Assembly (NCBI RefSeq): GCF_001758225.1
Contig: NZ_MAST01000007.1
Span: 1-64,000 of the forward strand
Direction of reading: 5' to 3'
From: Humibacillus sp. DSM 29435
GTDB lineage: Bacteria; Actinomycetota; Actinomycetes; Actinomycetales; Dermatophilaceae
DNA length: 64,000 nt
The position numbers and the translations under genes are program-made. Shown piece by piece: positions 459 to 5,217 of this stretch. The stretch's first letter is position 1. Each line of letters begins with the position of its first letter. The notes under the pieces are model-generated. The model worked only from the letters and a program-made list of their open reading frames with translations, was not told where the DNA came from and searched no databases.

Positions 459-1718
459 TCAGGCCCGGCGGGCGGCGGCAAGGTTGCGACGTCCGCGCTT
501 GAGCACGGCCACGGCGCCCCCGAGGAAGTCAGCCTCCGCCAGCACCTGGTCGGGGCCCACCACCCGCACGTTGTTGACCGACGCCCCGCCCTCGGCGATG
601 GCACGTCGCGCGGCGTTGCGGGAGTCGACGAGACCGACCTCGACCAGAGCGTCGACCACCGAGGTCCCCACGGCAACCGGAGCCCCCGGCAGCTCGGCGG
701 TGGCATCGGTGAGCGTGGCTGCGTCGAGCGTGGCCAGGTCGCCCTTGCCGAAGAGCGCCTCTGAGGCGGCCTGTACGGCGGCCGTGGCCAGGGGGCCGTG
801 AACCAGGGTCGTCACGTCGGCCGCCAGGGCGCGTTGGGCGGTTCGGCGGAACGGCTCCTCCGCGACCTGGCGCTCGAGCACGTCGATCTCCTCCCTGGAC
901 CGGTCGGTGAACACCTTGAGCAACGTGACCACCGACGCGTCCTCGACCCCGACCCAGTACTGGAAGAAGGCGTACGGGCTGGTCATCTCCGGGCTCAACC
1001 AGACGGCGTTCCCCTCCGACTTGCCGAACTTGCGGCCGGCGGCGTCGGTCAGCAGCGGCGTCGTGAAGCAGTGCACCGTCGCCCCGTCGGCCCGGTGCAC
1101 CAGGTCGACGCCGGCGGTGAGGTTGCCCCACTGGTCGGCACCCCCCGTCTGGAGCGTGCAGCCGTGCTCCCGGTAGAGCTGGAGGAAGTCGAGCGCCTGC
1201 AGGATCTGGTAGCTGAACTCGGTGTAGGAGATCCCCTCCTGACTCTCGAGCCGAGCCGCCACGGCATCCTTGCGCACCATCTGGTTCACCCTGAAGTGCT
1301 TGCCGATGTCGCGCAGGAAGTCGAGGGCCGAGATCGGCGCGGTCCAGTCGAGGTTGTTGACCAGCACGGCCGCGTTCTCACCCTCGAAGTCGAGGAAGGG
1401 CTGCACCTGGTGCTGGATGCGAGCGACCCAGTCGGCGGTGGTCTCCTTGGTCTTCAGCACCCGCTCCGCCGTCGGTCGCGGGTCTCCGATGAGACCGGTC
1501 GAGCCGCCGACGAGGCAGATCACCCGGTGACCGGCCCGCTGGAAGAGGCGTAGCACGACGAGCTGAACGAGGTTTCCGAAGTGCAGCGACGGCGCCGTCG
1601 GGTCGAAGCCGCAGTAGAGGGTGACCGGTCCGTCCGCGAGGGTCTGACGCAACGCCGCCTCGTCGGTGGACTGCGCCACCAGGCCGCGCCACTGCAGCTC
1701 GTCGAAGATGTCGGTCAC
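459..1718 (-). CDS. tyrS: Tyrosyl-tRNA synthetase
   Basis: Class I enzyme (419 aa) that charges tRNA-Tyr in the cytoplasm. The N-terminal nucleotide-binding fold has the HIGH-type motif in FDPTAPSLHFGN (about residues 38-49). The KMSKS loop appears as KFGKS in the bacterial TyrRS form, and a C-terminal S4 RNA-binding domain (about 355-410) contains the VNNVRV segment. Length is normal for the family. The start is a GTG at 1718 giving MTDIFDELQWRGL; a GAGG lies 13 bases upstream. The gene sits between the rRNA promoters and the glycosylase pair. No T-box structure was recognised in 1719-1885. Confidence 0.95.
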   Translation of the reverse strand: MTDIFDELQWRGLVAQSTDEAALRQTLADGPVTLYCGFDPTAPSLHFGNLVQLVVLRLFQRAGHRVICLVGGSTGLIGDPRPTAERVLKTKETTADWVARIQHQVQPFLDFEGENAAVLVNNLDWTAPISALDFLRDIGKHFRVNQMVRKDAVAARLESQEGISYTEFSYQILQALDFLQLYREHGCTLQTGGADQWGNLTAGVDLVHRADGATVHCFTTPLLTDAAGRKFGKSEGNAVWLSPEMTSPYAFFQYWVGVEDASVVTLLKVFTDRSREEIDVLERQVAEEPFRRTAQRALAADVTTLVHGPLATAAVQAASEALFGKGDLATLDAATLTDATAELPGAPVAVGTSVVDALVEVGLVDSRNAARRAIAEGGASVNNVRVVGPDQVLAEADFLGGAVAVLKRGRRNLAAARRA

Positions 1719-1885
1719 GGGTATCGGTGTCCTCTACTCGGGGGTCTGGGTCTGGGGCTGGGCCTGCACGCAACGTGCCTGCCACAGATTGCCCTACCGG
1801 CAGGCTCGCTGACGAATGACTTCAGGCCGGTCCCGGATGCCGGGCGCTCCCGGTCTCGGTGGGTCGCGGCCGCACGCGTGGCCGC

Positions 1886-2530
1886 CTACCGCCCGGTGCG
1901 CGGGGCCGCCGCGCGGTAGGCAGACACGCTCGGCTCGTCGGCCAACCAGAACCGCCACGGGTAGTCGGTGCCGTCACCGCCGGGTCCCCGCACCCCCACC
2001 CGGGGCCCGGTGCGCACCGCAGCCGCCTCTACCGGATGCCACGGGGCGGTGACCACGGGGCCGGTCGGGTGCCTGACCTCAGTTCGGCAGACGTCGAGGC
2101 CCGAGTGCGACCCGGTCAGCGCCAAGGCCTGCGCGAGACGGCCCGGGCCTCGGCACCAGTCCCGTTCGCGAACGGGGCCCCGGCGCAGCTGCACGTCTGC
2201 CTGGCCGGCGAGCACCTCTCCGGCTCGCAGGAGCACCACGTCTGGCTCCCCCACCTGACCGCTGACGATGCACGCCATCCAGTGGTGTCCGTAGGTGAAG
2301 TAGACGAACAGGTGGCCTGCGGCCCCGAACACCGGCGCGTTGTGCCGGGTCTGGCGGCTCAGCACCCGTGCAGCGGGGTCACGCCCGCCGGCGTAGGCCT
2401 CGGTCTCGGTGATCCGCAACGTCACCCCAGCGTGCGCGAGCTCACAGCCGAGCAGCTCACGGGCCACGTCGAGCACCGGGCGGGCGAAGAACTCACGGCC
2501 CAGCCGGACCGGCTCGGCCTCCTCGGTCAC
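1886..2530 (-). CDS. 3-methyladenine DNA glycosylase (AAG/MPG family), second copy, active-site His replaced
   Basis: Second of two adjacent MPG-fold proteins (214 aa), a family that excises alkylated purines in base-excision repair. It keeps ETEAY with the presumed catalytic Glu44 and Tyr46, the FTYG segment carrying the base-flipping Tyr, and the GPGRLAQAL and GPRVGV signatures. At the position matching human AAG His136, eleven residues after the catalytic Glu, it has Arg55, while its neighbour keeps His. The GTG start at 2530 overlaps the neighbour's TGA (GTGA), so the two are probably translationally coupled. An upstream in-frame codon at 2602 lies inside the neighbour and was rejected. 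Family membership is clear; substrate and activity are open. Confidence 0.85.
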   Translation of the reverse strand: MTEEAEPVRLGREFFARPVLDVARELLGCELAHAGVTLRITETEAYAGGRDPAARVLSRQTRHNAPVFGAAGHLFVYFTYGHHWMACIVSGQVGEPDVVLLRAGEVLAGQADVQLRRGPVRERDWCRGPGRLAQALALTGSHSGLDVCRTEVRHPTGPVVTAPWHPVEAAAVRTGPRVGVRGPGGDGTDYPWRFWLADEPSVSAYRAAAPRTGR

Positions 2531-3174
2531 GGGCGCCGCTCGCGGACGGCCCCGGGGCGGTAGACCGACACGCTGGGCTCGCCGTCGAGCCAGAACCGCC
2601 ACGGGTAGGTGACGCCGTCACCTCCCGGGCCGCTCACCCCGACCCGTGGGCCGGTGCGCACGCGCTGCGGGTCGACCGGATGCCGTGGGGCCGTCACGGT
2701 GAGGTCGATCGGTTCCCCGACCGCGGGCCGGCAGAAGTCGCGACCGGTGTGCTCACGCCCGAGCGCGAGCGCCTGAGCCAGCCGGCCGGGCCCGCGGCCC
2801 CAGTCCCGTTCACGGTCCGTGCCTCTGCGCACGCGCGCGAGGTCGTGGCCGACGACCACTTCCGCGCCTCGCACGAGCACCGACTCGGCGATGCCGTCGT
2901 CTCCTGCCACGAGGCAGAGCATCCAGTGGTTGCCGTAGGTGAAGTAGCAGTAGGTGAAGCCCGCCGGGCCGAACATGGGTCGGGTTCGCGGCGTGATGCC
3001 GCGGTAGGCGTGCGACCCCGGGTCTCGAGCACCGGCGTACGCCTCGGTCTCGGTGATGCGCACGGTGACGCCGGCGTGGGTGAGCTCACACCCGAGCAGC
3101 GCGGGCGCCACGGCGAGCACCGGCCGAGAGAAGAACTCACGGGGCAGCCGGTCGGCGCACGGTGCGGGGGTCAC
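2527..3174 (-). CDS. 3-methyladenine DNA glycosylase (AAG/MPG family), first copy
   Basis: MPG-fold DNA glycosylase of 215 aa that removes alkylated bases. ETEAY gives Glu44 as the likely catalytic base-activator and Tyr46, and DPGSHAYRG supplies His55, equivalent to human AAG His136. YFTYGNHW holds the intercalating Tyr, and VRGAE resembles the conserved Arg region. The GTG start at 3174 lies 3 bases after the argH stop, so the gene is probably read as the tail of the arg transcript. At about half of its positions it is identical or similar to the downstream copy, indicating an old tandem duplication rather than a recent one. Confidence 0.9.
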   Translation of the reverse strand: MTPAPCADRLPREFFSRPVLAVAPALLGCELTHAGVTVRITETEAYAGARDPGSHAYRGITPRTRPMFGPAGFTYCYFTYGNHWMLCLVAGDDGIAESVLVRGAEVVVGHDLARVRRGTDRERDWGRGPGRLAQALALGREHTGRDFCRPAVGEPIDLTVTAPRHPVDPQRVRTGPRVGVSGPGGDGVTYPWRFWLDGEPSVSVYRPGAVRERRP

Positions 3175-3177
3175 TGC

Positions 3178-5217
<2,040 letters not shown>

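Follow-up and report, generated by a model that had tools for sequence, protein, structure and literature searches.

The MPG fold is usually regarded as one enzyme with one broad lesion pocket. Human alkyladenine glycosylase (AAG or MPG) works as a monomer, and Glu125 is its general base and that of the family. Individual pocket residues of AAG have been linked to its choice of base. For example, Asn169 is described as a block on guanine, and the N169S variant raises excision of undamaged guanine 30-fold and of adenine 3-fold and behaves as a mutator in yeast (PMC5363859). The A135T variant excises less hypoxanthine and more ethenoadenine, and a figure legend in the same source names His136 among the residues lining the pocket (PMC9117138). 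Base choice by this fold is also pursued by engineers, who have altered Asn169 and its neighbours to obtain guanine editors (gGBE); these are engineered human proteins in which Asn169 was changed (N169S, later N169G), followed by Cys178, and His136 is not among the mutations listed for active versions (PMC10317176).

The window analyzed here, a stretch of 64,000 nucleotides from Humibacillus sp. DSM 29435, carries two such genes in tandem on the minus strand, where the order is argH, ORF1, ORF2, tyrS. ORF1 (P0001; 2527..3174, minus strand; 215 amino acids) starts with GTG three bases past the stop codon of argH (3178..4845, minus strand; an open frame as read), and ORF2 (P0002; 1886..2530, minus strand; 214 amino acids) is followed in the same direction by tyrS (459..1718, minus strand). 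The GTG start of ORF2 lies over the TGA stop of ORF1, forming a GTGA at 2527..2530 (minus strand). The two proteins are 61% identical across 206 residues and are the only PF02245 matches in the source genome, which is rated 100% complete. Four-base gene overlaps are common in compact GC-rich operons. The overlap suggests translational coupling rather than a product ratio; the preliminary description had gone further and taken coupled translation to suggest a 1:1 ratio, but a four-base overlap by itself implies neither such a ratio nor a complex. Promoter and terminator scanning of positions 1600-3400 found none, a result that is uninformative in a GC-rich actinobacterium.

Both proteins belong to the MPG family. 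They pass the curated PF02245 cut-off of 27 bits (ORF1, 182 bits; ORF2, 167.9 bits) and the NCBIfam cut-offs of NF002003 and TIGR00567, DNA-3-methyladenine glycosylase, ORF1 with 211.4 bits for NF002003 and ORF2 narrowly (188.7 vs. 182 bits); this label does not separate an Arg55 class. The description of two diverged MPG-family paralogues overlapping as GTGA behind argH thus stands. Best E-values to human AAG are 1.2e-20 for ORF1 and 1.9e-21 for ORF2, and the AlphaFold models (pLDDT 91.8 and 90.7, respectively) have the fold of human AAG (PDB 1EWN, 3QI5, 3UBY), with Z scores to 3uby_A, for these predicted models, of 28.9 and 28.5 over 195 residues each. Neither PADLOC nor PHROGs models matched ORF1 or ORF2 at E 0.1.

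The human AAG residue numbers used below are consistent with the AAG alignments and with the residues named in papers. The equivalents of Glu125, Tyr127, Tyr159, Tyr162, and Arg182 are present in both proteins. The AAG alignments agree with the earlier assignment of His136 to His55 in ORF1 (codon CAC, 3010..3012, minus strand) and Arg55 in ORF2 (codon CGG, 2366..2368, minus strand), and they place Glu44 of both proteins on Glu125 (in ORF2, codon 44 at 2399..2401, minus strand). By analogy with human AAG, the histidine missing from ORF2 would be a pocket and phosphate-contact residue and not the catalytic base, because the general base of the family is Glu125. Compared with human AAG, both proteins have Cys in place of Asn169; ORF2 differs further in its 136-149 loop and in having Arg at the position of His136, which ORF1 keeps. 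The preliminary description was silent on this cysteine, present in both copies. ORF1 would be an ordinary MPG/AAG-type glycosylase. ORF2 would be classed as a PF02245 member only and not as an AAG-type alkylpurine enzyme, because His136 is replaced by Arg.

The catalytic positions hardly vary among homologues, and residue 55 separates the second copies from all others. The family alignment comprises 176 rows, kept from 190 rows above 60 bits after 14 partial ones were dropped, the second copy of genome G001 among them; a wider set of 117 rows from 109 loci overlaps it and reaches Chloroflexi, Bacteroidetes, Proteobacteria, and others. In the 176 family rows, Glu44, Tyr46, Tyr77, and Arg102 (AAG Glu125, Tyr127, Tyr159, Arg182) are unvarying; in the wider set the equivalents of Glu125 and Tyr127 are present in 117/117 rows, that of Tyr159 in 115/117 (two Phe), and that of Arg182 in 116/117 (one gap). 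Position 55 is Arg in eight family rows, exactly the second copies, and His in the other 168; the wider set gives the same picture (His in 109, Arg in eight, all eight being second copies), so that the His136 equivalent is constant in every homologue examined that is not a second copy. One of the eight Arg55 rows, from G038, is frameshifted further downstream, and the partial G001 copy, outside the filtered set, has Arg55 as well. Two further positions separate the same groups: position 63 is His in the eight second-copy rows and Arg in the 168 others, and position 67 is Val in the eight and Met or Leu in the rest.

Position 87, equivalent to Asn169 (in ORF2, codon 87 at 2270..2272, minus strand), is distributed differently: of the 176 rows, 159 have Asn and 16 have Cys, and the frameshifted G038 copy is gapped there. 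Cys occurs in seven of the eight second-copy rows, the gap being the eighth, and in nine rows that keep His55. Seven of these nine are single-copy proteins and two are first copies from the source genus, where both copies have Cys. The single-copy mpg genes of Knoellia, Janibacter, and Phycicoccus elongatus (L065, L066, L072, L075) resemble ORF2 in having Cys at the Asn169 position and Met at 85, and argH lies upstream in the two of these loci checked (L065 and L066); unlike the pair, they are single and keep His136 and the ordinary loop. The cysteine of the source genus might have reached ORF1 by gene conversion from ORF2, but these single-copy Knoellia/Janibacter relatives have Cys together with His136; retention of an older Cys would be at least as simple on the more careful of two trees described below, where the deciding branches are weak.

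The replacement of His136 is one part of a larger change. Positions fixed in at least six of seven second copies and under 6% among the 168 other rows are 53, 55-59, 63, 67, 74, 75, 85, 87, 95, 96, 98, and 138; except for 138, which stands apart, they cluster in linear sequence around the pocket and at residues 53-69 (in ORF2, 2324..2374, minus strand), which correspond to a rebuilt lesion-recognition loop. Positions 87 and 98 of ORF2, which align with Asn169 and Cys178, differ naturally from the human residues. In the seven genomes compared, this loop is 94% identical among second copies and 89% among first copies, but 30% identical between the two copies of one genome, where other segments are 58-78% identical; no other segment is as conserved among second copies or as diverged between the two copies. 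Some variation occurs in the loop all the same: the partial G001 copy has Arg and not Ser at 58. In the AlphaFold models, residues 52-57 form a helix in ORF2 and none in ORF1, with lower confidence at these residues in ORF2 (84 vs. 94).

Most relatives manage with one gene. PF02245 matches occur in 175 of 186 genomes of the family, 161 with a single match and 14 with more than one. The search of related genomes that the preliminary description called for found the tandem pair in nine of the 186 genomes, in four genera (G000, G001, G038, G039, G169, G170, G173, G177, G178), and all nine have the GTGA overlap and an Arg55 second copy. Carriers include Terrabacter tumescens, T. aerolatus, Terrabacter sp. 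Root85, Terracoccus sp. 273MFTsu3.1, and two Humibacillus xanthopallidus strains. G001 is the sole congener of the source in the set, and its second copy ends with the contig after 166 residues. A pair unique to one strain, with random substitutions in the second copy, is excluded by the spread over four genera and by the shared loop. A profile of second copies, to which ORF2 itself belongs, gave 374.9 bits for ORF2 and 312.7 bits for the best other protein in 396 genomes of the order, a sample partly drawn from the same family. In a pattern scan of one genome per species (84,980 genomes), 368 relatives were confirmed, and in the best 79 of the 368 loci second copies came only from this group. 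As to gain from viruses or plasmids, one scan of viral contigs confirmed no relative, and matches on plasmids (145 records) were all below 60% identity.

The chromosomal setting is stable. The 15 neighbourhood loci represent eight of the nine pair genomes, one of which appears twice, together with six that lack an intact pair. Upstream of mpg, argH is present in 15/15, and downstream, tyrS is present in 14/15; the exception, L063, stops inside ORF2, and in L065 and L066 tyrS lies 2-3 kb further downstream. The second copy itself is less stable. Among nine genomes of the Terrabacter genus code (g50), four have an intact pair, one has remnants, and four have no second copy (G171, G172, G175, and G174, the last only 74% complete). 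Terrabacter sp. Ter38 (G176) has lost the second copy, leaving remnants of residues 1-48 and 163-209, in pieces. Located between mpg and tyrS (L078, 4609-4888), the remnants have an internal deletion. In Humibacillus xanthopallidus DSM 21776 (G038) the second copy is frameshifted. The second copy is dispensable, because there are remnants in one Terrabacter genome, a frameshift in one Humibacillus, and none in four genomes of the Terrabacter code.

In the more careful tree, built from 58 rows, second copies group in a clade of their own (support 100/100), and so do first copies (99/85). The placement of ORF2 relative to the Knoellia/Janibacter type depends on the tree: an 88-row quick tree groups ORF2 with that type, the 58-row tree groups it with first copies (80/90 as drawn, 73/90 by clade test), and a tree joining ORF2 to the Knoellia/Janibacter type was not rejected by an AU test (p 0.337), so the branching among first copies, second copies, and that type differs between trees. 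A recent independent duplication in the source genus was rejected (AU test, p-AU 0.000393). Pairwise Nei-Gojobori dN/dS values, with G038 left out, several dS values high, and one sequence partial, are 0.19-0.46 for second copies (28 comparisons, eight of the nine pair genomes) and 0.08-0.42 for first copies (28 genome pairs). In Terrabacter the second copy is the faster-evolving one (0.19-0.22 vs. 0.08-0.15 for the first, six pairs). The second copy is thus an old gene, under selection yet dispensable.

We consider ORF2 to be, with a fair degree of confidence, an old duplicate that has turned into a second glycosylase with an altered lesion pocket. The argH-linked mpg gene would have duplicated long ago, giving rise to the pair, and ORF2 would be a monofunctional glycosylase with the AAG fold that turns a purine out of the DNA helix and breaks its glycosidic bond by means of conserved Glu44 (AAG Glu125) and Arg102 (Arg182). 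Its lesion set would be shifted by the rebuilt loop predicted to lie over the flipped base, in which, relative to first copies and in AAG numbering, His136 becomes Arg, the next four residues change, and Arg145 becomes His, Met149 Val, and Tyr157 Phe; the pocket would additionally carry Cys instead of Asn169. ORF2 may read different lesions because the loop over the flipped base is rebuilt, and pocket changes are a plausible route to a new specificity because N169S and A135T alter that of AAG. Since ORF2 appears to keep the chemistry and change the reader, we infer that it is more probably another glycosylase, with a different range of lesions, than a dead subunit; its activity is putative and probably of this kind. 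The alternatives listed in the preliminary description included a heterodimer, a split substrate range, and a regulatory or inactive partner, of which the split substrate range agrees best with the shared His-to-Arg change, the rebuilt loop, and the retained catalytic residues, while the heterodimer found nothing positive in its favour beyond adjacency.

Other explanations of the second copy would account for part of these data. ORF2 could be a weak or dead lesion-binding protein, co-made with ORF1 by coupled translation, that marks or shields lesions or tunes ORF1. The replaced pocket histidine and rebuilt lesion loop would suit such a role, as would the faster evolution of second copies within Terrabacter and the loss of the gene in some relatives; human AAG that is catalytically dead can still act on DNA in cells, since its E125Q variant caused frameshift mutations in yeast (PMC5363859). 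Against an active ORF2, loss of the histidine could matter, as a triple mutant of human MPG, E125A/Y127A/H136A, has served as a dead enzyme, although that mutant also lacks Glu125 (PMC10317176). However, a pure binder would not need Glu44, Tyr46, Tyr77, and Arg102, which are retained in all eight second-copy rows, and we regard this role as unlikely. Still less probable is that ORF2 does much the same job as ORF1, with Arg substituting for His in the phosphate grip and the pair adding dosage. The abasic-site phosphate is held by His136 together with His266 in a structure of AAG on a nucleosome (PMC10281986), a task within the reach of Arg, and the second copy is dispensable; fixation of a new 17-residue loop (94% identical among second copies, 30% to first copies) is not expected from it.

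An obligate heterodimer of ORF1 and ORF2 seems very improbable to us. The genes are adjacent and the GTGA overlap is kept in 9/9 pairs, which is all that speaks positively for it, whereas human AAG is monomeric, 161 of the 175 matching family genomes have a single PF02245 match, and the second-copy signature clusters in linear sequence around the loop and pocket. The idea that ORF2 is a decaying duplicate devoid of function can draw on the remnants in Terrabacter sp. Ter38 and the frameshift in H. xanthopallidus DSM 21776, but it is scarcely credible given dN/dS well below 1 in 28/28 comparisons and a loop nearly unvarying across four genera.

If ORF2 is a second glycosylase with an altered pocket, its substrates can only be guessed at: without the Asn169 clash, and with a positively charged Arg close to the base, neutral or anionic purines of guanine type or deaminated ones might be preferred to cationic 3-methyladenine. 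The latter can be removed by Tag, and the Tag family had one match in each of 13 genomes searched; endonuclease V had none in the same 13, which are those of the 14 genomes of the four pair-carrying genera other than G174. In a search of seven genomes, the source genome had two HhH-GPD matches. These MPG proteins may carry the repair of deaminated purines, because endonuclease V had no match, Tag one, and HhH-GPD two. The absence of endonuclease V does not help to explain why the second copy is kept and singles out no substrate, because strains that have no second copy (G171, G172, and G175) share it.

More tentatively, and less likely than not in our view, ORF2 could represent a new class of the MPG fold in which Arg at the His136 position reads the flipped base directly. 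The targets of such a class would be bases that ordinary AAG excludes, whether guanine-type, deaminated or oxidised purines or a modified purine from foreign DNA, and it would work alongside an ordinary AAG from one coupled message. A conserved natural group with Arg, a rebuilt loop, and an intact catalytic set is a ready-made experiment on how the fold chooses its base. Among the open-access papers listed, none dealt in its title or abstract with MPG proteins that are paired or carry Arg136, which is weak evidence of absence.

In the other five family genomes with more than one match (G012, G046, G108, G118, and G154), the native mpg is fragmented, and G108 and G154 have a second, dissimilar mpg next to it. 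In G046 (L301, G046:C77:5400-12300) and in Serinicoccus chungangensis (G108; L303, G108:C32:6900-15200, also L089), inserts of roughly 6 and 7 kb, with a large serine recombinase (PF00239 and PF07508), break the native gene close to PF02245 profile position 70-73. The G108 insert also carries a full-length dissimilar mpg (PF02245, 209.8 bits). The mpg gene may serve as an integration site, with the element restoring the lost gene by its own copy. Similarly, the native mpg of G154 (L304, G154:C12:220600-224500) ends after about 73 profile positions with the dissimilar mpg directly next to it, possibly a remnant of an element like the G046 and G108 inserts. An insertion bearing an ISL3-type transposase (PF01610) disrupts the native mpg of G012 (L302, G012:C1:1165800-1168100).
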